A stretch of 64,000 nucleotides of DNA, taken from Betaproteobacteria bacterium HGW-Betaproteobacteria-7. Its GTDB lineage: Bacteria > Pseudomonadota > Gammaproteobacteria > Burkholderiales > Rhodocyclaceae. The stretch spans positions 1 to 64,000 of the forward strand of contig PHCE01000005.1 in assembly GCA_002840765.1 (NCBI GenBank), in the 5' to 3' direction. Position 1 is the first letter of the stretch. The number at the start of each line of letters is the position of its first letter. Shown piece by piece: positions 1-18,657 of the stretch. The translations under genes and the position numbers were made by a program. The notes under the pieces are model-generated. The model was not told the DNA's origin. It ran no database searches and saw only the letters and a list, made by a program, of their open reading frames with translations.

Positions 1-99
1 TTCTCGCTCGAAGGCAACACCGGCAAGGCTTTCCATACCCGCTCACGCCTGTTCACCGACAGCGAATGGGCCGAACTGCAGGCCGCTGGCCTGGTTTGA
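1..99 (+). CDS. C-terminal end of an unidentified protein (truncated by window edge)
   Basis: An open frame enters from the left edge in frame 1 and stops with TGA at 97-99. It gives 32 residues ending in EWAELQAAGLV. The tail is too short and too generic for a family assignment. It sits only 17 bases before the start of the cytochrome c gene, so the two are probably cotranscribed. If the locus carries a qhpR-type regulator or an aldehyde dehydrogenase it could be this gene or lie further left, but nothing visible supports either. Confidence 0.5.
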   Translation, partial: FSLEGNTGKAFHTRSRLFTDSEWAELQAAGLV

Positions 100-116
100 C
101 ACCGCAAGGAATGTTC

Positions 117-452
117 ATGAAAAAATATTTTGCTACCTGTGCGCTTTCGCTGATTGCTGCCGTTCTCTCTATCGCCCCCGTGTCCGTCGAGGCTAATGAG
201 CCAACCCGGATTCTCCGGAGAGCAAATTGCTTTGTTTGCCACTCCGTCGAAAGCAAGCGTATCGGCCCAGCCTATAAGGATGTCGCGGCCAGGTATCAAG
301 GCGATGACAGTATGCCGGCGAAATTATTCGACAAAGTGCGGAAAGGTGGCGCGGGGAACTGGGGAGATGTCGCGATGAGTCCGCACCCGAGCGAAACAAT
401 TAGCGATGATGATCTCAAGGCAATCATCCATTGGATTCTGTCCCGGAAGTAA
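117..452 (+). CDS. Small periplasmic monoheme cytochrome c (c551/c8 type)
   Basis: The 111-residue protein has a signal peptide (basic MKKY start, hydrophobic stretch, cleavage near VEA at residues 24-26). One heme site CFVCH lies at residues 38-42, and M87 in VAMSPHP is the likely distal ligand. Length and layout fit class I cytochrome c551/c552. The start at 117 is preferred over the in-frame ATG at 111 because AAGGA at 106-110 is well spaced only for 117. The gene precedes the amine dehydrogenase operon by 427 bases. By context it is a candidate electron acceptor for that enzyme; QHNDH is known to reduce small c-type cytochromes or azurin. The electron-acceptor role is inference. Confidence 0.85.
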   Translation: MKKYFATCALSLIAAVLSIAPVSVEANEPTRILRRANCFVCHSVESKRIGPAYKDVAARYQGDDSMPAKLFDKVRKGGAGNWGDVAMSPHPSETISDDDLKAIIHWILSRK

Positions 453-879: not shown

Positions 880-2490
880 ATGAAAAAAAAGCACATGGCG
901 CGGGGGACTGGCGCCCTGGTGTTGGTTACCGGGCTGGCGATATCGGCTATCGGCAACCCGGCTCATGCGGCGCTTTCGGGTCAAGCGCTGGTTAATAGCA
1001 AATGTGCGACATGCCATGAGGCAAAGACCGACCAGCACTGGACACGGATCGGTGAAAGCCGTCGCACGCCCGAAGGATGGGACATGACCGTGGCGCGAAT
1101 GACTTTCGCCCACGGCGTGAAACTCTCCTCGGAAGAACGTGGTGCCGTCGTCAAATACCTGGCGGACACCTATGGTCTGGCACCGGACGAAACAGCGGAC
1201 CATCGCTACATCATCGAGCGGACACCCAGTGTCGTTGAGCATCCCGAAAGCAAACCGATCGGTGACACCTGCGCGCGTTGCCATTCCTATGGACGCATCG
1301 CGGTTCAACGACGTACCGAAGATGACTGGCGCAAGCTGGTTCATTTCCATGTCGGACAGTTCCCGGCCATCGAGATTCAGGCGGGTGGCCGCGACCGCAA
1401 TTGGTTCGAAATTGCAACGGGCGACGTTGCGAAGGAATTGGGCAAGGTGTACGGCTACGACACTGCGAGCTGGAAGCAGTGGCAAGCCCAGAAGCACGCG
1501 GATGCGAGTGGCGTCTGGCGGCTGGTCGGAAATCGTCCCGGCGTAGGCGCTTACGAAGGAAAAGCGACGATCGCCAGGACCGGCGACGACCGCTATTCCG
1601 TGGCCATGGTGATGCGCTACGAAAACGGTTCGGAGGAGTCCGCGAAGGGTTCCGCCATCGTTTACACGGGGCACGAATGGCGCGCAACGCTGAAACAGGG
1701 CGGCCGCGACATTCACCAGGTGTTCAGCCTGGGAGCGAACGGGGCCGAACTGAATGGTCGCTGGTTCGAAGCGAATAACGACGCAGTTGGTGGAACCATG
1801 CGGGCGGTTCGGGCTGACAAGGGAGTTCCTGCGTCAGTGCTTTCAGTTCAGCCTGCCATGGTCCGCGCGGGGATGCGGACAACGCTGGCAATCAACGGCG
1901 TCGGGCTGAACGGAGAGGTCAACCTCGGTCGCGGCGTCAAAGTCATCAAGCTTGTCGAGCAATCGGCTGAGCGCATCGTGGCCGAGGTGGAAGTCGCCAA
2001 GGATGTGGCGAGCAGTTCCCGCGACGTGCAGGTTGGGCGTGCAAGCGGAGCCGGCCTGCTGAAGCTCTACAAGCAGATCGACTACGTGAAGGTCCTTCCC
2101 CAGCATCCGATGGCGCGCGTCGGCGGCAATGGCGGCTCCCAGCCAAAAGTACCGGCGCAATTGGAAGCCATCGCCTGGGCTGCCGGGCCGGATGGCAAAC
2201 CGGGCACCGCCGATGACATCCGCCTGGGTGCAGTTCCCGCTGCCTGGTCCGTCGACAACCTGAACAAGATGGCTGCTGAGATGCAGGACACGAAATTCGC
2301 CGGCCGTATCGAACAAACCGGCCTCTTCGTGCCCAACGGCGCCGGCCCCAACGCGGAGCGAAAGTACAAGACCAACAATGCCGGCGAGCTGAAAGTCACG
2401 GCGACGGTCAAGGATGGTTCGCGGATGGTCAAGGCGAGCGCGCCACTGATCGTGACGGTTCAACGCTTCAATGATCCCCCGATCCGCTGA
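880..2490 (+). CDS. qhpA: Quinohemoprotein amine dehydrogenase alpha subunit (diheme)
   Basis: The 536-residue periplasmic subunit carries both hemes of QHNDH, which oxidises primary amines to aldehydes and passes electrons from the gamma-subunit CTQ cofactor to an external acceptor. A signal peptide (residues 1-30, ending AHA) is followed by heme motifs CATCH at 42-46 and CARCH at 131-135. The rest, after about residue 170, is predicted beta-rich and matches the three beta-barrel domains of the known alpha subunit. The length is close to that of the Paracoccus and Pseudomonas proteins. The start has a strong CGGAGGA Shine-Dalgarno sequence. It is the first gene of the cluster; qhpD starts 25 bases after its stop. 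Confidence 0.95.
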   Translation: MKKKHMARGTGALVLVTGLAISAIGNPAHAALSGQALVNSKCATCHEAKTDQHWTRIGESRRTPEGWDMTVARMTFAHGVKLSSEERGAVVKYLADTYGLAPDETADHRYIIERTPSVVEHPESKPIGDTCARCHSYGRIAVQRRTEDDWRKLVHFHVGQFPAIEIQAGGRDRNWFEIATGDVAKELGKVYGYDTASWKQWQAQKHADASGVWRLVGNRPGVGAYEGKATIARTGDDRYSVAMVMRYENGSEESAKGSAIVYTGHEWRATLKQGGRDIHQVFSLGANGAELNGRWFEANNDAVGGTMRAVRADKGVPASVLSVQPAMVRAGMRTTLAINGVGLNGEVNLGRGVKVIKLVEQSAERIVAEVEVAKDVASSSRDVQVGRASGAGLLKLYKQIDYVKVLPQHPMARVGGNGGSQPKVPAQLEAIAWAAGPDGKPGTADDIRLGAVPAAWSVDNLNKMAAEMQDTKFAGRIEQTGLFVPNGAGPNAERKYKTNNAGELKVTATVKDGSRMVKASAPLIVTVQRFNDPPIR

Positions 2491-2515
2491 CGCAGATAGG
2501 CCAGAGGAGACGCCA

Positions 2516-3958
2516 ATGTCTGAAGCCAATCTGCTTTACGTCGATGCCAACGCGTTCCATGACGTTGCGGTGAAAGGGCGCCGGGTGCTGCTGCACGTGC
2601 CGAGTACGGGGATTTTCGATCTCGACGAAGTAACGGGTGAGGTTCTGGATTTCGTCCGGCCACGTTCGAGCGTCAGTTTCGACGATCTGCAGGCACGCTT
2701 CCTGGATCGGGGTGCGCCGAACCTGATCGCCGATGCCATCGAGGACCTGAAGTCGCTGGGTGTCCTGCGCAGCGCGCCGGCCATTCCCGATCACGGGCCC
2801 GGGATCAGCGTCAGCGAGTTTCCGCTCAGTACGATCGTGCTCAACGTCAATACCGGCTGCAATCTGAGCTGCACGTATTGCTACAAGGAGGATCTGACGA
2901 CGCCGTCGAAGGGCGACAAGCTCAGCCTGGAAAAAGCCAGGCAGGGTATCGAGCTGCTGCTGCGCGAAGGGGCCAGGCGGGAGCGCGTCAACGTGGTGTT
3001 CTTCGGCGGCGAGCCGCTGACCAATATGCCGTTGATCCGCGCCGTCACCGAGTACGCCGAGCAGCGCTGCCGTGAAGAAGGCAAGTCCCTGGACCTGTCC
3101 TTGACCACCAATGCGACCTTGTTGACGGAAGACATTGTCGACTACTTCCAGGCGCACCGTTTCGGCATCTCGATCAGCATGGATGGCCCCCAGGCCATCC
3201 ATGACAAGCGCCGGAAGACCATCGGCGGCAAGGGAACCTACGAGGTCGTGGCGGCGAAGAGCCGGATGCTGCTGGCGCGCTACACAGCACGGCCGGTCGG
3301 CGCCCGCGTCACCTTGACCGCGGGTTACTCCGACGTGGCGGCGATCCATCACCACCTGAAGAACGAGATCGGTTTCGCCGAGGTCGGTTTCGCGCCGGTC
3401 ACCAGCAATCCGGTCGAAGTCTTCAATCTGGTGGGCGATGAACTGCGCGCGGTGTTCGAGGCGATGAAATCCCTGGGAAGGGAATACGTTGCCGCGGCCA
3501 TCACCGGAGAAAACATCGGTTTCTCCAACATGCACCAGTTGCTGAGCGATCTCTACGAGGGGCGCCGGAAGGCGTTGCCGTGCGGCGCCGGCGTTGGGCT
3601 GCTGGCGGTGGATCACAAGGGGGACTTGAACCTTTGCCACCGTTTCACCGGGTCCGAATTGCCGATCTTCGGCAATGTCGAGTCCGGCATCGCCAAGGCG
3701 GAACTCGGCGCCTTCATGGAAAAAGCTCTGGATCGCTCGGAACGCGGTTGCTCCACCTGCCGCATCCGAAACCTTTGCTCGGGCGGCTGCTACCACGAGT
3801 CGTATGCCAATTTCAGTGATCCCCATTCGCCCGTCTATCACTACTGCGACCTGTTGAGGGAGTGGGTGGATTTCGGCATCGAAGCCTATCTGGAAATCCT
3901 CCAGAAAAACCCTGCTTTCCTTCACCGTCATGTCGCCAACAGGAGTTCTGAATTATGA
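2516..3958 (+). CDS. qhpD: Radical SAM peptide-modifying enzyme that forms Cys-to-Asp/Glu thioether crosslinks in QhpC
   Basis: The 480-residue protein has the radical SAM cluster motif CX3CX2C at C115, C119 and C122 (CNLSCTYC). A C-terminal SPASM-type region with multiple cysteines ([12 protein letters not shown] and a later C before the end) should bind auxiliary Fe-S clusters. QhpD is known to make the three intrapeptidyl thioether bonds between Cys and Asp/Glu methylene carbons in the gamma subunit, acting in the cytoplasm before export. ATG at 2516, with AGAGGAGA upstream, is chosen over in-frame upstream starts that overlap qhpA. Its stop overlaps the qhpC start (ATGA), which fits coupled synthesis of enzyme and substrate. 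Confidence 0.95.
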
Positions 3959-4275
3959 AAAATATCAAGCCGCTGAATCGTAAGGCCCACCAGATCGAAA
4001 CCGCTCCGACCGAGGAAGCCGCCGAAAAGGTGGTGGCCATGTCGGCCGCCGTTGCCGGATGTTCAACCACGTTCGATCCGGGCTGGGAACTCGACCCCTT
4101 CATGGGCGTGGCAGGACTTTGCCAGCCGATGGAGGCCGATCTCTATGGTTGCTCGGATCCTTGCTGGTGGCCTGCCCAGGTCCCCGACACGCTGCACAAC
4201 TACCCGAAATGGAACGAGGGTCGTGACGATGCGGCACGCGACTGGCAGTCGCTGCAAAGCGTCTTTCCCAAGTGA
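3955..4275 (+). CDS. qhpC: Amine dehydrogenase gamma subunit precursor (CTQ cofactor peptide)
   Basis: The 106-residue precursor is post-translationally modified into the catalytic subunit. With the mature chain taken to begin at S30, the residues known for QHNDH fall exactly in register. Thioether pairs are C36-E45 (7-16), C56-D62 (27-33) and C70-D78 (41-49); C66 and W72 (37-43) form cysteine tryptophylquinone. The first 29 residues are a charged leader rather than a Sec signal, as expected for a peptide processed by QhpD, QhpG and QhpE and exported by QhpF. The start overlaps the qhpD stop, and AGGAG lies upstream. Identification rests on the full set of modified residues. Confidence 0.97.
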
Positions 4276-4313
4276 TGCACCGGGTCACACCACCAAATCA
4301 GAGGAATTTTCAA

Positions 4314-5429
4314 ATGCTGACAAAGAACAAGTTAACTACCGCGTGTCTGGCCAATGCCACCGCCGCCGCATTGCTCACCCTGTATTCGGCCGGCGTGTTG
4401 GCAAAGGACTACATCGTCACCACCGCCCGCCCCGACGTCCTGTTCGTGGTGGACGCCAAGGAGCGCAAGGTCGTCAAGACCCACAAAATCCCGAACACGT
4501 CGATGGGCAACAGCCCGATCACGGTCGTGCCGTCGCGCGATGGCAAGGTGGCGTACATCATCCATAACCGCTGGGAGACGGTCTCGGGGATCGACCTGGA
4601 AAATGGCAAGGAGGTTTTCCGGGCCGAACTGTCGGAAGGTGAAGACCTTCGCGGCAAGGCCGTCTTTGCCATGGACCTGAGCCCCGACGGCAAGGAACTC
4701 GCCGTCTTCGTCAATCCCACCCGCCTGCTGCCAGGCGAATACCAGGTGCTGGACCCCTACATCGCGATCTACCGTACCGATGCGGGCACCGACGCCAAGC
4801 CTGAGCGCAAGTTGCCGTCGCCTCGCCGGGTGTCGACACTCGCCTATTCGGCGAAAGGCGACACCCTTTACACCTTCAGTTGGGAGATGCTCAAGCTCGA
4901 TCCAAAGACTGGTGCGGTGAAGGGCCAACACCCCTGGCGTAGCTGGAAGGAGCCCAACCGGGGCGAGCCGGACACGCTGGCCATCTGGCCGCAGTGGGAG
5001 CAGACCAACATCTTCGCCACGCCGTACTACAAAGTGGCCACTGACAAGGAGGCTGGCGATCCGGCTGCGTTGCGTGCGGGTATCTGGGCGCTCGACCTGG
5101 AAAAGGACACCGTCAGCTTCAAGGAATTCGAGGACGCTTCGGTGGTGCTCTTCTCGTCGGCGGTCAATCCGGTCCGGCGCAATGAGGTGTACACGGTCTA
5201 TACGCAATTGACGCGCACCGACATGAAGACCGGCAAGATGGACCGCGTCGATCTCGATCACACCTACTACGACGTGAACGTGTCGAGCGACGGCAGCGAG
5301 TTGTACATCGGCGGCACGCAGGGCGACATCGCGGTCTACGACAGCAAGAGCCTGAAACGCATCGGCAACATCCGGACGCCTGGCGGTGGCGATCAGGTGT
5401 TGAGTTCGCTGCGGATCTTCAAGCGCTGA
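4314..5429 (+). CDS. qhpB: Quinohemoprotein amine dehydrogenase beta subunit (beta propeller)
   Basis: The 371-residue protein has a signal peptide ending near GVLA (about residue 30). The mature part repeats short blades rich in Gly, Asp and Val (DVLFVVDAKERKVV, YIGGTQGDIAVYD), as in the seven-bladed propeller of QHNDH beta that supports the active site with gamma. ATG at 4314 follows GAGGAA with good spacing. An in-frame ATG at 4272 overlapping the qhpC end would add 14 residues ahead of the signal peptide and has no ribosome site. It lies between qhpC and qhpF, the usual order. Confidence 0.93.
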   Translation: MLTKNKLTTACLANATAAALLTLYSAGVLAKDYIVTTARPDVLFVVDAKERKVVKTHKIPNTSMGNSPITVVPSRDGKVAYIIHNRWETVSGIDLENGKEVFRAELSEGEDLRGKAVFAMDLSPDGKELAVFVNPTRLLPGEYQVLDPYIAIYRTDAGTDAKPERKLPSPRRVSTLAYSAKGDTLYTFSWEMLKLDPKTGAVKGQHPWRSWKEPNRGEPDTLAIWPQWEQTNIFATPYYKVATDKEAGDPAALRAGIWALDLEKDTVSFKEFEDASVVLFSSAVNPVRRNEVYTVYTQLTRTDMKTGKMDRVDLDHTYYDVNVSSDGSELYIGGTQGDIAVYDSKSLKRIGNIRTPGGGDQVLSSLRIFKR

Positions 5430-5436
5430 TTCGCCC

Positions 5437-7164
5437 ATGAGCGCAGAAGCAATCCGGCTTCCTGCCACGGTACCGAACGCGGTGCCGGCGGTTCGGGGCA
5501 TCAGAGATAAAGGCAGCCTGGGTCATTGGCTATGGTCCTTCATCCGCCCTGAACTGCCGGCATACGCGGCCGTGCTTCTGCTCTCCTTTCTTGCCGTAGC
5601 CGCTGGCCTGGCGCAGCCCTACCTGACCAAGACCTTGATCGATGAGGGCATCCTCGCCCATGATCGAACGGTCACCATGGCCACCGGCGGCTGGATGGTC
5701 GCGTTGGCATTTGGCGCCTTGCTCATCGGCTTTACCTGCCGGCGCATTCATGTCGCCGCCTCGGCGCGCTTGTTGCACCGGCTGCGCGAATCCCTGTTTT
5801 CGCACCTGCTGACCCTGTCGCCGGCGGTCTTTTCCCGCACCCGCCAAGGCGATCTGCTGGCCAGGCTGGAGGGTGATCTCGGTGAGGTGCAGCGTTTCTG
5901 TATCGATGCCGCCTTGTCGGCCATCAACTCGCTGCTGACGCTGATCGGCACGGTCGCCCTGCTCGGGCTGTGGAGTCCGCGGCTGGCTTTGTTCCTCGCC
6001 GCCCTGCTGACGGTCAATACCCTGGTGCTGGGCTGGGTGAGGCCGCGCATCGAAAACCTCTCGATCAGGGCGCGGGAAGCCGGCGTCGAGGTATCGAGCT
6101 TCCTCGTCGAAAAACTGGCGGCGGTACGCTGCATCCAGACCCACGTGGCCGAGGTGCGCGAAGGCGAGCAGTTGCGCAGCCTGCAAGACGCGGTACGCGA
6201 GCGCATGCTGGCCTTGCAACTGGTCGGCTACATCGGCGGGGCATTTCCGAACCTCGTGCTGTCGCTGGCGGTGATCGGCATCTTCGTCGGCGGCAGTCTG
6301 GCGATGACGGGCGTTGATGCATTGAGCCTCGGCACCTTGGTGGCTTTTGCCAGTTGCGTCCAGCGCGCCAGCGCGCCGGTGCATACCCTGATGGGGCTTT
6401 ATCTGCAATGGCAGCGGGTCAAGGTGGGCCTTGCGCGGGTGGCCGAACTGCACGCGCTAAGCCCGGCGCTGCCCATTCCCGCAGCCAGGCAGCAGGCCAG
6501 CGGTCCGGCGGGCGACATCGTCGCCGAAAACCTGGCTTTCACCTATCCCGGCAGCGACCGGGAAGCCGTATCGGGACTGAATTTCACCATTACCGCCGGC
6601 AGTAAGGTCTGGCTGCGGGGCGATTCGGGCAGCGGCAAGTCTACGTTCATCGATCTGCTGCACCGCCATTTCGCGCCGACGCGGGGCAGCCTGCGCCTTG
6701 GCGGGATCGAAGTGCGCGACCTCGATCCCGGAGTGCTGCGCCGACAGGTGGTGGTGGTCTCCCAGGAGGCAGTGCTCTTCGCCGGCTCGCTGGCTGACAA
6801 CATCCGTTACGGTCGCCCAGATGCCGAACCGGCAGCGGTGGCGCAAGCGGCCCGAGCGGCCGGCGTGTTCGAATTCGCCAGCCGCCTTCCTGAAGGTCTC
6901 GATACGCCGGTCGGCCCGCGTGGCGCCACATTGTCCGGTGGCGAACGGCAACGCGTAGCCCTGGCTCGCGCCCTGCTGATGGCGCCATCGGTCTTGGTGG
7001 TGGACGAAGGCACCTCGTCACTTGATGGGGCGCTGGAACAACGGACCCTGCAGGCGATCGATGCCTTGCTGCCACGGGCGACGCGGATCGTGGTTAGCCA
7101 CCGGGCTCTCGATGCGGCGGCCTTTGAACAGGTCGTCGATATGTCACGGAGCGCCGTATCTTGA
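5437..7164 (+). CDS. qhpF: ABC exporter for the modified gamma subunit
   Basis: The 575-residue half-transporter has an N-terminal six-helix membrane domain (about residues 35-325) and a C-terminal ATPase. Walker A GDSGSGKST is at 395-403, signature LSGGERQ at 499-505, Walker B VLVVDEG follows and a switch His lies near VVSHRA. It probably acts as a homodimer. In QHNDH systems QhpF carries the crosslinked QhpC across the inner membrane. It starts 7 bases after qhpB, and its stop overlaps the TTG start of qhpE. The family could export other peptides; operon position decides the assignment. Confidence 0.92.
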   Translation: MSAEAIRLPATVPNAVPAVRGIRDKGSLGHWLWSFIRPELPAYAAVLLLSFLAVAAGLAQPYLTKTLIDEGILAHDRTVTMATGGWMVALAFGALLIGFTCRRIHVAASARLLHRLRESLFSHLLTLSPAVFSRTRQGDLLARLEGDLGEVQRFCIDAALSAINSLLTLIGTVALLGLWSPRLALFLAALLTVNTLVLGWVRPRIENLSIRAREAGVEVSSFLVEKLAAVRCIQTHVAEVREGEQLRSLQDAVRERMLALQLVGYIGGAFPNLVLSLAVIGIFVGGSLAMTGVDALSLGTLVAFASCVQRASAPVHTLMGLYLQWQRVKVGLARVAELHALSPALPIPAARQQASGPAGDIVAENLAFTYPGSDREAVSGLNFTITAGSKVWLRGDSGSGKSTFIDLLHRHFAPTRGSLRLGGIEVRDLDPGVLRRQVVVVSQEAVLFAGSLADNIRYGRPDAEPAAVAQAARAAGVFEFASRLPEGLDTPVGPRGATLSGGERQRVALARALLMAPSVLVVDEGTSSLDGALEQRTLQAIDALLPRATRIVVSHRALDAAAFEQVVDMSRSAVS

Positions 7165-7808
7165 AGCGGGCCCGGGTCGGCCTCATCGACAGCGCGCTGG
7201 GCCAGGCTTTCGACGCCTCCGTGCTAGCCGCACATTCCTTTGCCGGAGCTTGCGATGAACGTTTCGAACATGGCGAACAGATCGCGGCTTGCGTGCTGCA
7301 ACACTGTCCGTCCGCCCGCCTGCTGGTGGCCAGCGTGCTCGACCGACGGCGCGAAGGCCGCGTCGATGCAGTGGTGGACGGCCTGGCCTGGCTGGTCGAT
7401 GAGGGCGCACAAGTCATCAACATGAGCTTTGGCATGCCGCAGTTCAGCCCGCGCCTCGCGCAGGCTTGCCGTGCCGCCGCCGAGGCTGGCGTCGTACTCG
7501 TCGCTGCGGCCCCGGCCCGGGGCGATGCCGCCTTTCCTGCTGCTTTTGGCGACTGCATCGGCGTGAGCGGCGATGCACGCTGCGCGCCGGGCGAAGTCTC
7601 CTGGCTGGCGACCGGGGCGGCGGATTTCGGCACACATCCCTTTCTCGAGCCGGGCGATCCTCGCCGTGGCGGCGGTGCCAGCATTGCCAGCGCGCGCCTG
7701 AGCGGTTTGCTGGCGGCTTGGCTCGAAGCGGGCATGAAAGCCTCGGCATTGCGGGCCGAGCTGGAGCGCCGGGCGCGCTACGTCGGCCCGGAACGGCGCC
7801 ATGGGTGA
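7161..7808 (+). CDS. qhpE: Subtilisin-like leader peptidase of QhpC
   Basis: The 215-residue protein is a compact subtilisin fold with no signal peptide. The triad is visible: D10 in GLIDS, H37 in EHGEQ and S174 in GASIA. QhpE is known to remove the QhpC leader after crosslinking, in the cytoplasm. The start is TTG at 7161, overlapping the qhpF stop; no ATG fits the N-terminal Asp motif. Its stop overlaps the next gene by 8 bases, so translation is probably coupled. Lack of a signal peptide and small size separate it from secreted subtilases. Confidence 0.9.
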   Translation: MKRARVGLIDSALGQAFDASVLAAHSFAGACDERFEHGEQIAACVLQHCPSARLLVASVLDRRREGRVDAVVDGLAWLVDEGAQVINMSFGMPQFSPRLAQACRAAAEAGVVLVAAAPARGDAAFPAAFGDCIGVSGDARCAPGEVSWLATGAADFGTHPFLEPGDPRRGGGASIASARLSGLLAAWLEAGMKASALRAELERRARYVGPERRHG

Positions 7809-9948
7809 ACGTACGGTGTGGGTAGCGGCGTTGGCTGCGGCACTACTGTGCGCAGCATTTCCGTCCATCGGCAATGGTGTGGTTTTTGTCGCCGGTTTCT
7901 GCACGCTCGCGGCGGGCCTGTTTCCCGGGTGGCGCCTATCCCTGACGCGGCACGCGGCGGCCTTGCTGTCAGGGGCGCTGCTCGGCTTGGCCGCGCTGCT
8001 ACTCGGCGACCGTTTCGAGGTGCGCTACGTGTGGCTCTACAGCGGCGCCGAACTGCCGCTGTATTTGAAGCTCGGCAACCTGTGGGGCGGCGACGAAGGC
8101 ACGACGCTGCTGCTGGCCGCATTTTGTACAAGTCTCGTGGCGGTCAACCGCGTGGTGCCCTGGCGCTTCGATGTCACCGCCCTGATCGGAGCCGCCCTGG
8201 CGTTGACCGCCGCCTGGCTGGGGCCATTTTCTGCGACACCCGCAGAGTGGCTGGCCGGGGCCGCGTCTCAGGGGATGAACGCCCATCTGATGAATATCTG
8301 GATGCTGGCCCATGCTCCACTGGTGCTGGCCGCCTATGCGTGGACGCTGGCCCTGGCCTCGCCAGCACTCGCCGCGCTCGCTGGCGATCAGGCCATTTGG
8401 CCCGAGGTGGCGCTGGCACATGCGCGGCGAGCCTGGGCGCTGCTGACAGCCGGCATCGGCTTCGGCATGGTTTGGGCGTTCGAGGACGCGATGTACGGGC
8501 AGGTTTGGCACTGGGATCCGGTACAGACAGCGGTGTTCGCCGTGTGGTGCCTGCTCGGCGCGCATCTGCACGGCATCGCCGGCTGGCGGGTGGGGCGCCC
8601 GGTCTGGCGATGGATGCCGTTGGCGGCGTTGCTGGCCGCGGTAATGACGCTGGTGGCAATGGGCGTCACCCGCAACGAGGTGCTGGCAAGCTCGCACCGT
8701 TACGTGGGGGCTACGGCCTCGCCGATGTACTTTTGCCTGGCGGCGATTCTTGTGTTGGCAGGGGGCGTCATGGCCTGGTATGGGCGTCGGGTGGCACCGC
8801 TACCGCAGCGCGTGGTCCCGGCTGCCTGGGGGCTGCGCCTCACGCAGTTTGTTTTCATTGCGTTGGGTCTGCTCGCCGCCGGTCATCTGGCATGGGCTTA
8901 CCTCGCCAGTGTCCTGGGCTGGCCGCGGCCGGAAGACCTGAAACCGTTCTTCGAGACGCTCGACAATTGGCGGCGCGGCCGCGAATTGCCCGCATTGCGC
9001 GCTGCCTTCGCCCAGTGGGACATCGACGGCTATGCGCTTGCCGGTGTCGCGCTTTACCTCTTGATCGGTATTGGGCTGGTCGGCGGTTGGTTCTTCTGTG
9101 GGCGCCTGACGCGGCGGCTCGGTTGGCTGACGCTGGCGCTCGCGGCCATCGTCTGTGCCGTTACGTGGATCGAAGGCGGGCCGCTCACCCGGGACTACAT
9201 GGGCGAGGGGGTGTTGTCGCAACGCATCGTCGCGGTGTTGCCGCGTATCGATGCGGCGCTGGTGGCCGGTGCCTACCTTGCGCTCGGCGTCATTGCCTGG
9301 AGCGTCTTTACGGCACGCAGAACTGCCAGCAAGGGCTACGTGCTCTCGTTGGGCCTGGTGCATCTGGGGGCGGTGATTGCGCTTTGGGGTGCCTTGCTGG
9401 CTACGGCTCTGAACGGTTATTCCCAGCGGCTGATCGAGTTGTCCGATGCGTGGCAGGACACCGCTCACGGTTATGCCTTCCGCGTGACTTCGCTGGCGGT
9501 GGAGCGGGCGGCGGACGGCGGACGGACGAAGGGGGCCGGGAGTTTTCGGGCGCTGGCCCAGGTTGAGTTGAAGAGCCCGTCGCAAAGCGTCGTCAGCGGC
9601 CAGACGCTGTACCGCGATGCGCGTAGCGCCGTCGAAGGTTACAGCGGGCCGGTGCGCCAGATCTGCGAAGTGCTCGATTATCGCTACGCCCGCTATGCCA
9701 ATACGCCCGGCTATGTGCTGCATCCCTTCATTGACCGTGGCTGGGCGCGCGACGTGCAGTTGTGGGTATCCAGCGCGGCGGCGGTGGCGGCGCTCGAAGG
9801 CGGGCCGCAGGCGTCGCAGGCCCTCGTCGTACTGCGCGTCTTTCCCTTTGCATCGCTGCTCTGGCTTGGCCTGGCCCTGGCTTCCACTGGCGCACTGTGG
9901 TTCGCCACGCGCCGGCCCAGGCACGGCCACATCAAGGAGGTTTCATGA
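7801..9948 (+). CDS. CcmF/NrfE-like cytochrome c heme lyase inside the amine dehydrogenase operon
   Basis: The 715-residue integral membrane protein has about 14-15 predicted helices. A WGG box lies at W95 (WGGDEGTTLL), and a heme-handling tryptophan-rich loop at 236-240 (WHWDP, followed by VQTAVF) corresponds to the WWD domain of CcmF (WxWDPVEN). A large periplasmic loop near residues 540-675 resembles the CcmF C-terminal domain, including the DVQLWVS strand where CcmF has DLYVSLG. CcmF attaches heme to apocytochrome c CXXCH sites. The only c-type cytochromes in this cluster are QhpA (two hemes) and the upstream monoheme protein, so dedicated service to QhpA is the natural inference. The sequence is divergent from general CcmF, and no other ccm gene is nearby. 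It overlaps both qhpE and qhpG. Confidence 0.8.
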   Translation: MGERTVWVAALAAALLCAAFPSIGNGVVFVAGFCTLAAGLFPGWRLSLTRHAAALLSGALLGLAALLLGDRFEVRYVWLYSGAELPLYLKLGNLWGGDEGTTLLLAAFCTSLVAVNRVVPWRFDVTALIGAALALTAAWLGPFSATPAEWLAGAASQGMNAHLMNIWMLAHAPLVLAAYAWTLALASPALAALAGDQAIWPEVALAHARRAWALLTAGIGFGMVWAFEDAMYGQVWHWDPVQTAVFAVWCLLGAHLHGIAGWRVGRPVWRWMPLAALLAAVMTLVAMGVTRNEVLASSHRYVGATASPMYFCLAAILVLAGGVMAWYGRRVAPLPQRVVPAAWGLRLTQFVFIALGLLAAGHLAWAYLASVLGWPRPEDLKPFFETLDNWRRGRELPALRAAFAQWDIDGYALAGVALYLLIGIGLVGGWFFCGRLTRRLGWLTLALAAIVCAVTWIEGGPLTRDYMGEGVLSQRIVAVLPRIDAALVAGAYLALGVIAWSVFTARRTASKGYVLSLGLVHLGAVIALWGALLATALNGYSQRLIELSDAWQDTAHGYAFRVTSLAVERAADGGRTKGAGSFRALAQVELKSPSQSVVSGQTLYRDARSAVEGYSGPVRQICEVLDYRYARYANTPGYVLHPFIDRGWARDVQLWVSSAAAVAALEGGPQASQALVVLRVFPFASLLWLGLALASTGALWFATRRPRHGHIKEVS

Positions 9949-11279
9949 AACAGATCGTCATCCTGGGCGCCGGCCCGGCGGCATCTTTCCTCGCGCTGTC
10001 CCTGCTCAGGGCCGGTCATGCCCCGCTGATGATTGGCCAATGGCGCCGAAAGCCTGCCGTGGAAGGGCTGTCCCTAAGGGTCGTCGAGGCATTGGAGCGC
10101 CACGGGTGTGCTGGCGCGCTTTCGCTGTTGGGTCCGCGCTGGCGCCGAATCTCCGCCTGGAATGGCGAAGAAATCGAAATGAACGGCGAATTCGTCGTCG
10201 AGCGGGTGGCTTTCGACAAGGCTTTGGCAGCTGACGTAGGCGCTGCCGGCATCACCATCCATGAGGGACGTGTGGCGGGGATCGGCCGTGACGCGGACGG
10301 CGTCCGCACCATTGCGTGGACCGATGCCTCCGGGCAATGGCGGCATACCCGCGCCGACCTGGTCGCCGAATGCCGAGGGCATGCTGCGCCGCGGTCGCTG
10401 CCGGATGTCCATAGTGGCGCCATGTTGGTGTCGCTTGGGCGCAGTTTCGCGGGCGCCCGCCCGCAGCCACGCACGACCTTCGCTGAATCCTTCGCCCATG
10501 GCTGGGCCTGGGGCGCAGTGGACGGGCAAGGCCGGGCGCACATCCAGACCGTGGTGGCTGCCGATAGGGTGAAACGCTACGGCGGCGATCTGGAAGTCAC
10601 TCACACAGCCAATCTGAAGTATCTCGACCGCCTGCTGGCGCATTTCGGTAGAGAAATACAACCGAGCGGCCCGGCGCGGGCGCGTGGCATCCAGCCGGCG
10701 CTGCGCGGCGGCGTTGCCCAGGAGGATTATCTGCGTGTCGGGGATGCCGCCTATACCGGTGACCCGCTGTCCGGCCACGGCATCTTCGAAGCGGCCTCGG
10801 GCGCAATCGCCGCTGTGCCGGTGATCAACACGCTGCTCAAGCGCCCGGATGACGGAGCGCTGGCGCTGCGCTATTTCGCGGAGCGGGCGGAGACGGTGTA
10901 TTTCTCCCGCATCAAAGCCGCGCGTCAGCACTATGCCGAAGAGACGCAGTGGCCCGATTCGGAGTTTTGGCGGCGAGCATGTGCGGGTGCCCCTGAAGAA
11001 TCTGGCAAGCAGCCAGGTCAAGCAAAATTTGACATCCGGCCTGTCGTTGAGGGTGGATTCATCATCCCGCGCCGCGTTGTCATCAGCGAAGAACACCCTC
11101 GTGGAGTGCGCTTCATCGATGGGGTCGACCTGGGACTCATTGATGAGCGCCTGCGCACTTCACCAAAAATAGATATCACCACGTTCAGCAGAGAGCTGAG
11201 CGCCCCCGCGGAGTCGATCCTGCGCGCATTGCGATGGCTGCAAACGCGCCACCTCGCTCCTCAGCACGTGGCGCAGTAA
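9945..11279 (+). CDS. qhpG: FAD monooxygenase that hydroxylates the CTQ precursor tryptophan
   Basis: The 444-residue flavoprotein has a Rossmann dinucleotide motif GAGPAA at residues 8-13 and a second FAD motif GDAAYTGDPLSGHG in the middle, as in tryptophan halogenase-like and group A monooxygenases. QhpG is known to dihydroxylate the QhpC tryptophan that becomes the quinone. AAGGAGG precedes the ATG, which overlaps the heme-lyase stop (ATGA). The region after about residue 350 is less conserved-looking and slightly lower in GC. A weak stem (GCGCCAC at 11246-11252 with GTGGCGC at 11268-11274) lies at its 3' end, 11 bases before a T run. Confidence 0.92.
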   Translation: MKQIVILGAGPAASFLALSLLRAGHAPLMIGQWRRKPAVEGLSLRVVEALERHGCAGALSLLGPRWRRISAWNGEEIEMNGEFVVERVAFDKALAADVGAAGITIHEGRVAGIGRDADGVRTIAWTDASGQWRHTRADLVAECRGHAAPRSLPDVHSGAMLVSLGRSFAGARPQPRTTFAESFAHGWAWGAVDGQGRAHIQTVVAADRVKRYGGDLEVTHTANLKYLDRLLAHFGREIQPSGPARARGIQPALRGGVAQEDYLRVGDAAYTGDPLSGHGIFEAASGAIAAVPVINTLLKRPDDGALALRYFAERAETVYFSRIKAARQHYAEETQWPDSEFWRRACAGAPEESGKQPGQAKFDIRPVVEGGFIIPRRVVISEEHPRGVRFIDGVDLGLIDERLRTSPKIDITTFSRELSAPAESILRALRWLQTRHLAPQHVAQ

Positions 11280-11322: not shown

Positions 11323-12108
11323 ATGAAAAAAAATGTACTCAAGGCATGGATTACCGTGCTCGCCGCGCTGCTGGCTGCAGTAAACGTTGTCCACGCCGAG
11401 GAAGCGCCAGCACCTGCATATTCCATTAGCGCCAATGTTGGGTTGTTTTCGCAGTACGTCTTCCGCGGCATTTCCTACACACAGGAGAAGCCTGCAGTCC
11501 AGGGAGGGTTCGATCTCGCCCATCAGAGTGGACTCTACTTGGGAATATGGGGGACTAACGTCAGCGACGCTGCACTGAACAATGCGGTTGGCGAGATTGA
11601 CATATACGGCGGTTATGCAAACACGGTGGGCGATGTCACCTATGACTTGGGCTTCCTTCAGTTCATCTTTCCTAACGGCCAAATAAACGGAACCGACGAA
11701 AAATACGACACGCTGGAACTGAGCGCCGCACTAACCTGGAAGTTCTTGAACGTGAAGTACTCGCACACAGTAACGGACTATTTCGGGATTAATGACAATT
11801 CGTTGGGGCTAGGCCGTGGAGGGTCAAAGGGATCGAATTACATCGAAGGTAATCTTGCCTACGAGTTTCTGCCAAGCTGGAAGGGTTTGATCCACGTGGG
11901 ACGTCAGCATGTTCGCAACTATGATGAATATGACTTCACTGACTGGAAAGTCGGGGTCACAAAAGACTTTGCCGGCGGCTGGCAAGCCGGGATAGCCTGG
12001 ATCACCACGAACGCCGACAAGCAGTTGTATACGGTGTGCGACGGCAATAGCCGGTGCAAGGACACTGGAGCCAATAAGTGGCTTGTCCACGTTAAGCGGA
12101 CGTTCTGA
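11323..12108 (+). CDS. TorF-family putative outer-membrane protein
   Basis: The 261-residue protein has a signal peptide ending VHAEE. The mature part begins with an aromatic strand pattern (SISANVGLFSQYVFRGISYTQ) characteristic of the TorF/TIGR02001 family, with alternating beta strands and a terminal aromatic F. Such proteins are predicted small beta barrels of unknown substrate. It is 43 bases behind qhpG with a good AAAGAGGAG site, so it may be the last gene of the operon. A role in amine uptake is only a guess. GC content is lower than in the genes to its right. Confidence 0.75.
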   Translation: MKKNVLKAWITVLAALLAAVNVVHAEEAPAPAYSISANVGLFSQYVFRGISYTQEKPAVQGGFDLAHQSGLYLGIWGTNVSDAALNNAVGEIDIYGGYANTVGDVTYDLGFLQFIFPNGQINGTDEKYDTLELSAALTWKFLNVKYSHTVTDYFGINDNSLGLGRGGSKGSNYIEGNLAYEFLPSWKGLIHVGRQHVRNYDEYDFTDWKVGVTKDFAGGWQAGIAWITTNADKQLYTVCDGNSRCKDTGANKWLVHVKRTF

Positions 12109-13392: not shown

Positions 13393-13977
13393 ATGAGCCA
13401 CTATCTCTTCATCCTTGTCGGCGCGGTGCTGGTCAACAACGTCGTGCTGGTCAAGATGCTCGGCCTGTGCCCGTTCATGGGTGTTTCCAAGAAACTGGAA
13501 ACGGCTTACGGCATGGGCGCCGCCACCACCTTCGTGCTGACGCTGGCCACCGGCGCCAGCTACATCATCGACCAGTACCTGCTACTGCCTTTCGGCCTGG
13601 AATACCTGCGCGCGCTGTCCTTCATCGTCACCATCGCCGCCATCGTCCAGCTGACTGAAATGGTCATCGCCAAGACCTCGCCGACCCTGCAGCAGACGCT
13701 GGGCATCTACCTGCCGCTGATCACCACCAATTGCGCCGTGCTCGGCGTGCCGCTGCTCAACATCGCCGGCGGCCACAATTTCGTCGAGTCGCTGCTCTTC
13801 GGCGCCGGCAGCGCCGTCGGTTTCTCGCTGGTACTGATACTGTTTGCCGGCATCCGCGAGCGTGTCGAATGTGCCGACGTACCGGTGTACTTCCGCGGAT
13901 CGGCCATCGCCATGGTCACCGCCGGCCTGATGGCCCTCGCCTTCATGGGCTTCGCCGGCCTGGACAAGTATCAGTGA
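13393..13977 (+). CDS. rnfA: Rnf complex membrane subunit A
   Basis: The 194-residue protein has six predicted transmembrane helices and no soluble domain. The [16 protein letters not shown] segment near residue 20 holds the Cys now linked to the membrane-embedded Fe-S cluster shared with RnfE. It is an inner-membrane subunit of the ion-translocating ferredoxin:NAD oxidoreductase. It is first of six contiguous rnf genes, followed after 4 bases by rnfB. Confidence 0.97.
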
Positions 13978-13981
13978 TCCC

Positions 13982-14545
13982 ATGGACATCCTGACTGCCA
14001 TTGCCATCATGGCCCTCGGCGCCGTTGTGCTCGGCGCCGCGCTCGGTTTCGCTGCGATCAAGTTCAAGGTCGAGGGCGATCCCCTGGTCGAGAAAATCGA
14101 AGCCATCCTGCCGCAGACGCAGTGCGGCCAGTGCGGTTTCCCCGGCTGCAAGCCCTATGCCGAGGCCATCGCCAAGGGTGATGTGGACATCAACCTGTGC
14201 CCACCGGGCGGCATGGAAGGCGTGCAGCGCCTCGCCGACCTGCTCGGCCGCGAGGTCAAGCCGCTGGAAGCCGAGGAAAAGCCGAAGCAGGTGGCGATCA
14301 TCGACGAGAACACCTGCATCGGCTGCACGCTGTGCATCCAGGCCTGTCCGGTCGATGCCATCGTCGGCGCCGCCAAACAGATGCACACCATCATCGCCGG
14401 CCAGTGCACCGGCTGCGAACTGTGCCTGCCGCCCTGCCCGGTCGAGTGCATCCGCATGGAAACCATCGGTGAAACACTCGATAACTGGAAATGGAAATAC
14501 CCGGTGGTCGGCATCAAGGCCGTGCCGTTAAAGGACGCCGCCTGA
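13982..14545 (+). CDS. rnfB: Rnf complex ferredoxin subunit B
   Basis: The 187-residue protein has one N-terminal membrane helix. A four-Cys cluster motif follows (CGQCGFPGC and a later C), then two 4Fe-4S motifs, [12 protein letters not shown] and [12 protein letters not shown]. It passes electrons within the Rnf complex on the cytoplasmic face. The stop overlaps the rnfC start by one base (TGATG). Confidence 0.97.
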
Positions 14546-16284
14546 TGTTGAACCTGTTCAAATTCTGGGGTGGCATCAAGCCGCCCAGCCACAAGACGGA
14601 ATCGAACCAGCATCCGATCGGCGTCGCACCGCTGCCGTCGCACCTGATCGTGCCGCTGCACCAGAGCATCGGCGGCACGCCGAAGCCAGTGGTGCAGGCC
14701 GGCGACAAGGTGTTAAAAGGCCAGTTGATCGGCGAGGCCGACGGCTGGATTTCCGCCGCCGTGCACGCGCCGACTTCCGGCACCGTGCGCGAGGTCGCCA
14801 TGCATGTGCGGCCGCATCCGTCCGGCCTCGATTCGCTGTGCGTGGTCATTGACCCCGACGGCCGCGATGAATGGATCGCCCGCACCCCGCTTGATCTGGC
14901 GACCACCGCCCCGGCCGACGTCTTCGCCCACCTGCAACGCTCCGGCGTGGTCGGCCTTGGCGGTGCCGGCTTCCCGGCCCACGGCAAACTGACGCCGGCG
15001 CCGAATGTGCCAATGGACGAGCTGATCATCAACGGCGCCGAGTGCGAGCCCTACATTACCTGCGACGACCTGCTGATGCGCGAGCGGGCCGACGAGATCA
15101 TCCGCGGCATCGCCCTCTTCCGCGATCTGCTGCAGCCGAAGAAGGTGCTGATCGGCATCGAGGACAACAAGCCGGAAGCGGTGGCCGCGATGACCGCCGC
15201 TGTCGCTGCCCGCGGCGAGAACTTCGCCGTCGTCGCCGTGCCGACCCGCTACCCGGCCGGCGGCGCCAAGCAATTGATCCGCGTGCTGACCGGCAAGGAA
15301 GTCCCCGGGTCGATGCGCTCGACGGCCGAGATGGGCGTCCAGGTTTTCAACGTCGCTACCGCCTACACCGCCTGGCGTGCCGTCGCCCATGGCGAACCGG
15401 TCATTTCGCGCGTGGTCACGCTGACCGGCAATGTCGCCGAGCCGCGCAACTACGAAGTGCTGATCGGCACGCCGATGGACGAGTTGCTCAAGCTCGCCCG
15501 GCCACACCCGGATACCAACGGCATCCTGATGGGCGGCCCGATGATGGGCTTCTTGGTGCCCAATCGCCAGGTGCCGGTAGTCAAGACCACCAACTGCCTG
15601 ATCGCCCATTCGGAACGCCTGTTCCCGCCGAAGGCGCCGGAGATGCCCTGCATCCGCTGCGGCGCATGCGCCACGGTCTGCCCGCACGAACTGCAGCCCT
15701 TCGAGATGTACTGGTACGCGCGCGCCAAGAACTTCGGCAAGACGCAGGAATACGACATCTTCGACTGCATCGAGTGCGGCTGCTGTTCCTACGTCTGCCC
15801 GTCACGCATTCCGCTGGTCCAGTACTTCCGCTTCGCCAAGAGCGAGATCTGGGCACGCGAGCGCGAAAAGAAGGCGGCCGAGGAAGCCAAGGCCCGTTTC
15901 GAGTTCAAGCAGTTCCGCGACGAGCGCGAAAAGGCCGAGAAGGCCGAGAAGCTGGCCAAAGCCGCCGCCGCTCAGGCGGCCAAGAAGGCAGCGGAAGCGG
16001 CGGCAGCCGCTGCCGCACCGGCCGGCGACGCACCCGCCACGGTAGCGGCCACCGACGCCCCGGCTCCAGCAAGCGCCGCCGATGCCGACAAGGCCGCCAA
16101 GATGGCCACCATCCAGGCCGCCATGGAGCGCGCCAAGGCGCAACGGGAAGCCGCGCAGCCAAAGAATATCGAGGCGCTGAAGCCGGACCAGCAACGTGAG
16201 CTGGCCGAGATCGAAGCCCGTCGCCAGGCTGCCGGTATTGCCGATGCCCCGGCAAGCGCCACTCAGGAAACGAAAGCCGAATGA
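14545..16284 (+). CDS. rnfC: Rnf complex NADH-binding subunit C
   Basis: The 579-residue peripheral subunit carries the NAD(H)/FMN-binding fold, with a glycine-rich GLGGAGFPAHGK loop near residue 135. Two 4Fe-4S motifs follow (CIRCGACATVCPHE and CIECGCCSYVCPS). The last about 140 residues are a Lys/Ala/Glu-rich helix-forming tail common in proteobacterial RnfC and variable in length. ATG at 14545 overlaps the rnfB stop; an in-frame upstream ATG lies within rnfB and is not needed. It overlaps rnfD by 4 bases. Confidence 0.97.
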   Translation: MLNLFKFWGGIKPPSHKTESNQHPIGVAPLPSHLIVPLHQSIGGTPKPVVQAGDKVLKGQLIGEADGWISAAVHAPTSGTVREVAMHVRPHPSGLDSLCVVIDPDGRDEWIARTPLDLATTAPADVFAHLQRSGVVGLGGAGFPAHGKLTPAPNVPMDELIINGAECEPYITCDDLLMRERADEIIRGIALFRDLLQPKKVLIGIEDNKPEAVAAMTAAVAARGENFAVVAVPTRYPAGGAKQLIRVLTGKEVPGSMRSTAEMGVQVFNVATAYTAWRAVAHGEPVISRVVTLTGNVAEPRNYEVLIGTPMDELLKLARPHPDTNGILMGGPMMGFLVPNRQVPVVKTTNCLIAHSERLFPPKAPEMPCIRCGACATVCPHELQPFEMYWYARAKNFGKTQEYDIFDCIECGCCSYVCPSRIPLVQYFRFAKSEIWAREREKKAAEEAKARFEFKQFRDEREKAEKAEKLAKAAAAQAAKKAAEAAAAAAAPAGDAPATVAATDAPAPASAADADKAAKMATIQAAMERAKAQREAAQPKNIEALKPDQQRELAEIEARRQAAGIADAPASATQETKAE

Positions 16285-17300
16285 TTTTTGCTCCCTCGCC
16301 CTTCCTGCTCAAGGACGTCAGTGTCAGCCAGGTGATGACCCAGGTCTGCGTCGCCCTGATTCCGGGCATTGCCGCCTACGCCTGGTTGGTCGGTCCGGCC
16401 ATCCTGGTCCAGCTGGTCATCGCCACCTTCGCCGCCCTGTTCGCCGAAGCGGCGATGCTCAAGCTGCGCGGCAAGCCGCTGGCGCTGTTCCTCTCCGACG
16501 GCTCGGCCATCGTCACCGCCTGGCTGATCGCCCTCACCTTCCCGCCGCTGGCGCCGTGGTGGATGGTGTTCACCGGCACCATCTTCGCCATCGTCTTCGC
16601 CAAGCACCTCTATGGCGGTCTTGGCCAGAACCCCTTCAACCCGGCGATGGTCGCCTTCGCCGTCTGCATCGTCTCCTTCCCGGCCTTGATGTCGCAATGG
16701 CCGGCCGTCGGCCTGGAACTGCGCCTGGTCGACCAGATCGACATCATCTTCGGCCTTGCTCCGCGCGTCGATGCGCTGACCAGCGCGACGCCGCTCGACG
16801 CGATGAAGACCGCCCTGCGCATGGGCGACGGCAATTTCGACATCGCCCAGTTGCTGGCCAACCAGGATATCTACGGCAACTTCGCCGGCCGTGGCTGGGA
16901 GTGGGTGGCCGCCGGCTACCTGATCGGCGGCTTGTGGCTGTGGCATCGCCGCGTCATCTCCTGGCAGGTGCCGGTAGCCTTCATCGGCTCACTGACGCTG
17001 ATCTCGGGCGCGCTCTGGCTGTACAACCCGGCGGCCTTCGCCAACCCGATATTCCATCTGTTCTCCGGCGGCACGCTGCTCGGTGCCTTCTTCATCGCCA
17101 CTGACCCGGTTTCCGGCTGCACGACGCCGCGCGGCAAGCTGATCTTCGGCGCCGGCGCCGGCCTGCTCGCCTACATCATCCGCGTCTTCGGCGGCTTTCC
17201 CGATGGCGTCGCCTTCGCCGTGCTGCTGATGAACCTCAGCGCCCCGGTCATCGACCTGCTGACCCAGCCGGCCATCTTCGGCATGAAGGGCAAAAAATGA
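16281..17300 (+). CDS. rnfD: Rnf complex membrane flavoprotein subunit D
   Basis: The 339-residue protein has about ten membrane helices and the covalent FMN attachment segment DPVSGCTTPRGK, where a Thr is flavinylated. It belongs to the NqrB/RnfD family. Start and stop overlap rnfC and rnfG by 4 bases each. Confidence 0.96.
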   Translation: MIFAPSPFLLKDVSVSQVMTQVCVALIPGIAAYAWLVGPAILVQLVIATFAALFAEAAMLKLRGKPLALFLSDGSAIVTAWLIALTFPPLAPWWMVFTGTIFAIVFAKHLYGGLGQNPFNPAMVAFAVCIVSFPALMSQWPAVGLELRLVDQIDIIFGLAPRVDALTSATPLDAMKTALRMGDGNFDIAQLLANQDIYGNFAGRGWEWVAAGYLIGGLWLWHRRVISWQVPVAFIGSLTLISGALWLYNPAAFANPIFHLFSGGTLLGAFFIATDPVSGCTTPRGKLIFGAGAGLLAYIIRVFGGFPDGVAFAVLLMNLSAPVIDLLTQPAIFGMKGKK

Positions 17301-17965
17301 GCAGTGCGCCGAAGGAATTCGCTGCCCCGGCGATGGCCGCCCGCACCGCGGCCACCCTCTTCGTCTTCGTCGTCATCTTCACCGGCCTGCTGTCCACCGT
17401 CTACAAATGGACCCGGCCAGTGATCGAAGCCACCGCCCGCGAGGAACGCCTGCGCCTGCTCAACGAAGTCCTGCCCGCCGCCGAATACGACAATGATCCG
17501 GTCGCTGAGGCGCGGACGCTGCCGCCGACGGCAGAACTCGGCCTGAAGGAGCCAAGCACTTTCTACCCCGCCCGCCGGGCCGGCCAGCCGGCCGCCGTCA
17601 TCTTCGAGGCCAGCGCGCCGGATGGCTACGCCGGGCGCATTCGCCTGCTCATCGCCATCCGTGCCGACGGCACCGTCGCCGGCGTGCGCGTCACTCAGCA
17701 CAAGGAAACGCCGGGCCTCGGCGACTACATCGAGCCGAAGAAGGACCGCAACAAGACGCGCCCGTGGATCACCCAGTTCAACGGCCTGGCATTGGCAACA
17801 ACCGAAGACAAGGCCTGGCGTGTGATCAAGGACGGCGGCCGCATCGACTACTACGCCGGAGCGACCATCAGCCCGCGTGCCATTGCCCGTGCCGTGCACA
17901 AGGCGGCACGCTGGTACGACGCCCATCGCCAACAACTGTTCTCCCCTGACGGAGGCAAACCATGA
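17297..17965 (+). CDS. rnfG: Rnf complex flavoprotein subunit G
   Basis: The 222-residue protein has one N-terminal membrane helix and a periplasmic FMN-binding domain. The segment YYAGATISPRAIARAV near residue 190 carries the Thr that takes covalent FMN, and HKETPGLGD is the other conserved box. It overlaps rnfE by 4 bases. Confidence 0.96.
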   Translation: MSSAPKEFAAPAMAARTAATLFVFVVIFTGLLSTVYKWTRPVIEATAREERLRLLNEVLPAAEYDNDPVAEARTLPPTAELGLKEPSTFYPARRAGQPAAVIFEASAPDGYAGRIRLLIAIRADGTVAGVRVTQHKETPGLGDYIEPKKDRNKTRPWITQFNGLALATTEDKAWRVIKDGGRIDYYAGATISPRAIARAVHKAARWYDAHRQQLFSPDGGKP

Positions 17966-18657
17966 TCACCCGTCACGAACTGACCAACATCGCCCGCAAT
18001 GGCCTGTGGAAGCAGAACAGCTCGTTGGTCCAGTTGCTCGGCCTGTGCCCACTGCTGGCGGTGACAACCAATGCGGTCAACGGCATCATGCTGTCGCTGG
18101 CGACGATCATCGTCATGGCCGTCGCCAACATCGCCGTCGCCTCGTTGCGCAACCTAATTCCGCACGAAATCCGCATCCCGGTCTTCATCCTCATCGTCGC
18201 CGCCCTGGTCACCGTCGTCGACCTGATGTTCAACGCCAACCTGCACGAGTTGTACGTCGTGCTCGGCATCTTCATTCCGCTGATCGTCACCAACTGCATC
18301 GTGCTCGCCCGCGTCGAGGCCTTCGCCGCCAAGAACCCGCCGCTGCATTCGACGCTCGACGGCATCTTCATGGGCCTCGGCATGCTGTGGACCCTGGCCC
18401 TGCTCGGCGGCATGCGCGAACTGCTCGGTGCCGGCACGCTGTTCGGCGGCATCGACATGGTTTTCCCCAGCCTGCAGCCAATCCAGCTGCTGCCGGAAAG
18501 CTATCCCGGCTTCCTGCTCGGTTTGCTGCCGCCCGGCGCCTTCATCCTGCTCGGCTGCATGATCGCCTGGAAGAACTGGATGGACGCCCGTGCTGCCGCC
18601 CGCGCCCGCGACAAGGGCAATGCCCCGGCAGCGCCGGCACCGGCAACGGCTGCCTGA
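17962..18657 (+). CDS. rnfE: Rnf complex membrane subunit E
   Basis: The 231-residue protein with six helices is the inverted-topology partner of RnfA. It has the QLLGLCPLLAVTTNAVNG box whose Cys corresponds to that of RnfA. The C-terminal tail is Ala/Pro rich. It is the last rnf gene; no rnfH follows. Confidence 0.96.
   Translation: MITRHELTNIARNGLWKQNSSLVQLLGLCPLLAVTTNAVNGIMLSLATIIVMAVANIAVASLRNLIPHEIRIPVFILIVAALVTVVDLMFNANLHELYVVLGIFIPLIVTNCIVLARVEAFAAKNPPLHSTLDGIFMGLGMLWTLALLGGMRELLGAGTLFGGIDMVFPSLQPIQLLPESYPGFLLGLLPPGAFILLGCMIAWKNWMDARAAARARDKGNAPAAPAPATAA

Follow-up and report, generated by a model that had tools for sequence, protein, structure and literature searches.

The 64,000 nucleotides analysed here (the window) are positions 1 to 64,000 of the forward strand of contig PHCE01000005.1 of Betaproteobacteria bacterium HGW-Betaproteobacteria-7 (assembly GCA_002840765.1, family Rhodocyclaceae). 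Near their start lies a row of genes for quinohemoprotein amine dehydrogenase (QHNDH) and its maturation, in the order qhpA, D, C, B, F, E, X, G (Table 1). The name X is our label for the gene between qhpE and qhpG, which is intact, with an uninterrupted frame of 715 codons. The products of qhpA, D, C, B, E and G all exceed the curated NCBIfam cut-offs, and the qhp gene set as published, in the available text of the source, is qhpABCDEFGR (PMC7876137). The start of X overlaps qhpE by 8 bases and its stop overlaps the start of qhpG by 4 bases (ATGA), which confirms the two overlaps from which an earlier note on this DNA had read operon membership.

Table 1. Genes of the qhp row and neighbouring features in the window
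Feature	Position	Strand	Evidence or remark
Small c-type cytochrome, upstream of qhpA	66..452	+	possible electron acceptor
qhpA, alpha subunit, two ordinary CXXCH, presumed target	880..2490	+	TIGR03908, 728.6 bits, above cut-off
qhpD, radical S-adenosylmethionine thioether maturase of QhpC	2471..3958	+	TIGR03906, 804 bits, above cut-off
qhpC, gamma subunit, carrier of cysteine tryptophylquinone (CTQ)	3955..4275	+	NF037958, 163 bits, above cut-off
qhpB, beta subunit	4272..5429	+	TIGR03907, 502 bits, above cut-off
qhpF, ATP-binding cassette exporter	5437..7164	+	ABC_membrane and ABC_tran; named by position and PMC7876137
qhpE, subtilisin-like protease	7161..7808	+	NF049966, 215 bits, above cut-off
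X, CcmF-fold WWD heme-handling protein, 715 aa	7801..9948	+	residue roles by homology
qhpG, flavin Trp hydroxylase	9945..11279	+	NF049967, 391 bits, above cut-off
TorF/Gcw_chp putative porin	11323..12108	+	directly downstream of qhpG
Rnf-like electron-transport gene row	13393..18657	+	downstream of pyrD; named by eye

The X product belongs to the WWD heme-handling family, as it matches the Pfam domain Cytochrom_C_asm at 47.2 bits (cut-off 29.9), a domain that is also found in all 11 members of X alignment set A1 (E <= 0.01). It also has the CcmF fold, since in a structural comparison limited to fold relatives ranked by Foldseek it matches CcmF over nearly its whole length. On the CcmF/NrfE model TIGR00353 it scores 64.6 bits, well below the curated cut-off of 569.05, and the other 10 X genes of the Rhodocyclaceae score 48-72 bits; the two orthodox CcmF of the same genome reach 785 and 772 bits. 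A tree of 103 rows places 49 X sequences opposite 53 CcmF and E. coli NrfE across a dividing branch with a support of 100 in the Shimodaira-Hasegawa-like approximate likelihood ratio test (SH-aLRT); the tree was a quick one, its stems are long and its root was not inferred. Thus X falls outside the CcmF clade, apart from NrfE as well, and the divergence from CcmF noticed earlier is borne out. Within the 49 X sequences 42 alignment columns are invariant. Together with the functional reading given below, to which it is tied, it is about an even call that X adds to CcmF and NrfE a third lineage with the System I heme-ligase fold.

We explored the distribution of X by searching genomes for X and QhpA. 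Among 199 genomes sampled from the family, X occurs in 11 and QhpA in 29, and in each of the 11 genomes with X, QhpA shares its contig at distances of 343 to 7962 bases. Among 398 genomes sampled from the phylum, where the X search scored only two candidates per genome, X occurs in 3 and QhpA in 7, all 3 being among the 7. The window genome is counted in both samples, an X-negative genome is one with no match at E <= 1e-30, and many of the genomes are draft. Scanning named records yielded 57 X loci under the titles Thauera, Azoarcus, Methyloversatilis, Pseudomonas, Emcibacter, Magnetospirillum and others, with many metagenome assemblies among them; QhpA lies beside X in 44 of these loci and some Qhp gene in 45. 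Searching whole genomes found QhpA in 22 of 23, the miss being a 1.5-Mb assembly, and for 12 of the 13 named-record loci without adjacent QhpA it was found elsewhere in the genome. The 68 X loci that we examined include duplicate genomes (for example L052/L081, L056/L085, L060/L090 and L065/L116), and the position of X within them varies, as it stands after qhpE, before qhpA, after qhpB, after a U32 gene or after qhpD. This linkage and co-occurrence with QhpA supports the proposal of the earlier note that X is dedicated to qhp.

The Emcibacter-type loci (L115, L117, L118, L119, L121, L122, L123, L127 and L133) are distinct in that X keeps one chromosomal neighbourhood, with qhpADCB beside it in 2 of the 9; some of the seven qhp-less stretches are short, and L127 begins inside X. 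Retention of X without qhp in Emcibacterales was considered and rejected, given that QhpA is found at another site in 6 of the 7 genomes concerned and the seventh is a 1.5-Mb assembly.

General cytochrome c maturation (Ccm) genes are present elsewhere in the window genome. Contig C10 carries ccmA, B, C, E and F with a ccmG/dsbE-type and a ccmH/nrfF-type gene in a single row, and contig C28 carries a further set of ccmF, G, H type, the CcmF of which falls among the CcmF sequences in the tree; the CcmH-type genes match the NrfF model only, under its cut-off. The C28 set (L006, G000:C28) adjoins an apparent ResB/CcsA pair, recognised by eye, and a long protein rich in CXXCH motifs, and it suggests another private heme-attachment set in this genome. 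Across the family sample CcmE is found in 29 of 29 QhpA genomes, and a CcmF other than X in 11 of 11 X genomes; no CcmF was seen in one X-less genome of that sample (G183). A CcmF other than X was also found in all 29 further genomes searched, 22 above cut-off and 7 as partial matches. As the earlier note had supposed, X is therefore not the only or ordinary CcmF of its genome. The idea that it is, or that it is a decayed copy of one, has the family resemblance in its favour and is ruled out for practical purposes by the two orthodox CcmF elsewhere, the separate clade, the open frame and the 42 invariant columns; we give it next to no credence.

We next compared residues between the 49 X sequences (67 reduced at 88% identity to 50, minus the truncated L127) and 53 CcmF. 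All four heme-ligand histidines of CcmF (P-His1, P-His2, TM-His1 and TM-His2) have counterparts in 49 of 49 X, namely H171 and H299 for the P-heme and H257 and H521 for the transmembrane (TM) b-heme. The TM-His and P-His names follow a published usage, the E. coli numbers are those that we take to apply, and residues 173, 261, 303 and 491 of E. coli CcmF were checked to be His. Also kept in every X are W225, D239 and the pair W212 and W249, and so is the Trp equivalent to E. coli CcmF W229. The Trp pair that matches W212/W249 has been proposed as an electron relay in CcmF (available text of PMC10663686). Other positions are newly invariant in X. F241 of E. coli CcmF has become His237 and L164 has become His162, both in 49 of 49. 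The one cysteine that is invariant, Cys622, belongs to the C-terminal domain; all three residues are periplasmic by alignment to CcmF. The WHWDPVQ loop comprises residues 236-242 and ends in Gln242. Its invariance is partly a matter of selection because the named-record scan looked for WHWDPVQ and TAGIGFGM (the two occur together in 16 of 56 translated loci, WHWDPVQ alone in 40 and TAGIGFGM alone in 0), but the loop is also present in the pattern-free finds (10 of 10 family-search loci and 2 of 2 other phylum-search genomes).

The explanation that we favour, with a confidence that is evenly poised, is that X is a dedicated QHNDH maturation factor that uses the general Ccm pathway and places heme on QhpA. 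It builds on the computed fold, ligand residues, operon overlap, co-occurrence with QhpA and coexisting general ccm genes, to which we add by inference that X binds heme, receives it from CcmE and ligates it to QhpA. Specifically, X would reside in the inner membrane and hold a b-heme with His257 and His521, electrons of which would pass via Trp212/Trp249 to the second heme, which His171 and His299 would bind at the periplasmic WWD loop. The second heme would be taken from the general CcmE of the cell, thiols could be reduced by the general CcmG/CcmH or by Cys622 of X itself, and heme would then be attached to the QhpA CXXCH sites under amine induction.

Several observations weigh against this explanation, the most serious of which is located in the loop itself. 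The position of E. coli CcmF E246, which is Glu in 53 of 53 CcmF as well as in E. coli NrfE and in 5 of 5 CcsA, is Gln242 in 49 of 49 X. According to the available text of a 2023 study in mBio (PMC10746174), W229 and E246 are absolutely required in CcmF under Ala/Cys substitution, and CcsBA has a required counterpart of this Glu; X has the Trp and has replaced the Glu. It is mainly this invariant Gln that keeps us from calling X a heme lyase outright. The lyase assignment made earlier is thus supported in part: X has the fold, the heme-ligand histidines and the Trp pair of CcmF, but ligation itself is no more than a proposal, the Glu reported as essential being Gln in every X examined.

A second observation concerns partners, as tblastn with nine CcmG/CcmH/CcmI/NrfF/NrfG proteins gave no match at E <= 1e-3 in the 68 X loci, 40 of which span at least 5 kb on both sides. 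The one weak match is in L072, a locus without X, and a motif scan for CcmG/H partners, in which the controls passed, gave 8 matches that we read as shadow-frame chance. Both observations would suit a protein that is no ligase, in which the two-heme wire is kept and would make X a redox partner in the membrane during QHNDH assembly, perhaps one that performs or drains the final periplasmic oxidation of dihydroxy-Trp to the CTQ quinone. Such a role would be served by the redox and heme-ligand residues that are kept alongside the Gln, and by the new invariant periplasmic His162, His237 and Cys622. It is also congruent with the lack of the Glu in E. coli CcmC, a protein that does not act as a cytochrome c synthase, and with the final CTQ oxidation being a step without an assigned enzyme, for which the QhpA hemes are only proposed in the available text of PMC7876137. 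However, the genomes and operons without X need the same oxidation, the contact between X and QhpC that it calls for is only hypothetical, and Gln could still support ligation. We therefore regard a non-ligase role as unlikely. The stronger version, in which X would be the first CcmF-fold protein that is no longer a cytochrome c synthase and its wire (with the Gln, His162, His237 and Cys622) would finish the CTQ of the exported gamma subunit, is in our judgement distinctly unlikely.

Also weighing against a maturation factor are the qhp operons that do without X. In the family sample 18 of the 29 QhpA genomes show no X at the threshold given above, one of which (G169) is uninformative in that its QhpA contigs end where X would lie. 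Two genomes (G100 and G103) have, in the sequence at hand, two QhpA operons of which a single one includes X. A Paracoccus pantotrophus plasmid operon matches A, D, C, B, E, F, a regulator and QhpG and has no X, and among the plasmids of PLSDB, which covers plasmids only, there is no X at E <= 1e-10 while QhpA occurs in 27 records. On a QhpA tree, from whose states G169 was omitted, the presence of X needs 6 state changes, at least 5 of them forced by the starred branches, relative to 19.5 in shuffles; this is again a quick tree, with sampling biased toward X because 57 loci were retrieved through X. The trees of X and QhpA are not fully congruent, with Thauera X grouping with that of Azoarcus and Methyloversatilis and most Thauera QhpA lying nearer the Pseudomonas type. 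Hence X seems tied to the qhp system and not to one type of QhpA.

The presumed target is unremarkable in that the QhpA motifs are two ordinary CXXCH whether X is present or absent. This agrees with what the earlier note saw in the window, rules out odd heme motifs in the QhpA of X-bearing operons, and again does not favour a special maturation factor. Nor do other QhpA residues track X, since of 591 columns none agrees in 4 or 5 of five hand-picked contrasts and 5 agree in 3. For the timing of heme insertion relative to docking of the gamma subunit, which the earlier note offered as a possible reason for a private lyase, these comparisons supply no QhpA feature. Ordinary motifs, the presence of a general ccm system and the absence of X from many QhpA genomes would all be expected if X were extra capacity, that is, CcmF-equivalent chemistry of no special specificity that is co-induced to keep a surge of di-heme QhpA from overloading the general system. 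Yet a deep separate clade and invariant differences in the active loop exceed the needs of a spare copy, and the look of a spare copy is instead displayed by the C28 ccmFGH-type set of the same genome, with its CcmF inside the CcmF clade. Extra capacity is thus, we think, improbable.

Another possibility is that X ligates or carries heme privately for a different cytochrome, for instance the one that accepts electrons from the amine dehydrogenase, and that its link to qhp reflects shared physiology. The small c-type cytochrome gene upstream of qhpA would provide such a target, and unlinked targets are possible. Against this, open reading frames with CXXCH other than QhpA lie within 9 kb at only 15 of the 68 X loci, where they are 9 QhpD (an Fe-S enzyme), 2 of an unrelated cluster, 2 small cytochromes (the window and L078, the only loci with this gene near X) and 2 of a two-CXXCH protein confined to L082/L083. 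QhpA is the only c-type cytochrome that recurs near X, which rules out another recurrent nearby cytochrome as its client, and we consider this possibility rather improbable overall.

Additional analysis of the surrounding genes revealed a UbiU-like Peptidase_U32 gene in some qhp loci. In the U32-type loci (L048, L050, L051, L053, L054, L064, L066, L068-L072, L131 and L134) no QhpG lies near qhpE/F, and the U32 gene stands there. Within 3.5 kb, 29 of 51 qhp loci have QhpG only, 14 have U32 only, 0 have both and 8 have neither (Fisher 2.5e-7, kinship ignored). The UbiU-like product has 9 near-invariant Cys in 24, scores 73 bits on the UbiU model (cut-off 440) and is accompanied by a partner gene in 11 of 14 loci. 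It may carry out an oxygen-independent hydroxylation of the CTQ Trp. Counting against a clean split, both genes occur farther apart in L058, L060 and L079, and QhpG is found elsewhere in two U32 genomes (G044 and G167; QhpG is above cut-off in 15/29). Loci L073-L077, a single QhpA clade, have neither QhpG nor the UbiU-like gene, with a stray partner-gene match at the edge of L074; in G103 (L076) QhpG lies with its other qhp operon. Relatives of the putative porin downstream of qhpG flank qhp genes in many Thauera, Azoarcus and Methyloversatilis loci.

A full-text search, with most subscription papers outside its reach, found no paper that joins quinohemoprotein amine dehydrogenase with CcmF or a heme lyase; the available text of a Methyloversatilis paper has a single mention of 'qhpX', in a table of plasmids, and leaves it undefined there (PMC5023235). 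X is a candidate addition to the qhp set that is absent from the Paracoccus plasmid locus examined. It is also a natural, invariant E-to-Q variant of a WWD acid that is reported as essential in CcmF and CcsBA, and so a ready-made test of the role of this acid in heme ligation.

Relative to known systems, X is 20% identical to CcmF (E. coli; T. thermophilus 6zmq) in a profile alignment and differs from it in not keeping W236 and W239, in an extra segment near 391-413, in a longer C-terminal domain with the invariant Cys622, and in that no ccmG/H/I-like genes were detected adjoining X at the 68 loci. CcsA of System II is smaller than X and keeps the Glu in 5 of 5, while Wolinella CcsA1 and NrfI can be related to X by published descriptions only. 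A parallel in gene arrangement is E. coli NrfE, which is likewise a CcmF paralog inside the operon of its target enzyme, though it retains the Glu and groups with CcmF. As described in the available texts, NrfE acts on the CXXCK heme of NrfA and comes with NrfFG (PMC12285233), and SirE of Shewanella oneidensis is a second CcmF-type protein needed for SirA beside the general CcmF, the SirA site being an atypical CX12NKGCH and SirF/SirG/SirH partners lying in the same cluster (PMC6976685). Our likening of SirE to X is by this description and not by sequence. Unlike X, both NrfE and SirE have targets with odd motifs and a CcmH-like partner, a difference that adds to the points against our favoured explanation. 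Conversely, should X prove to be a ligase, it would exemplify a private CcmF paralog acting on ordinary CXXCH motifs, and private ligases would then serve not only odd ones.
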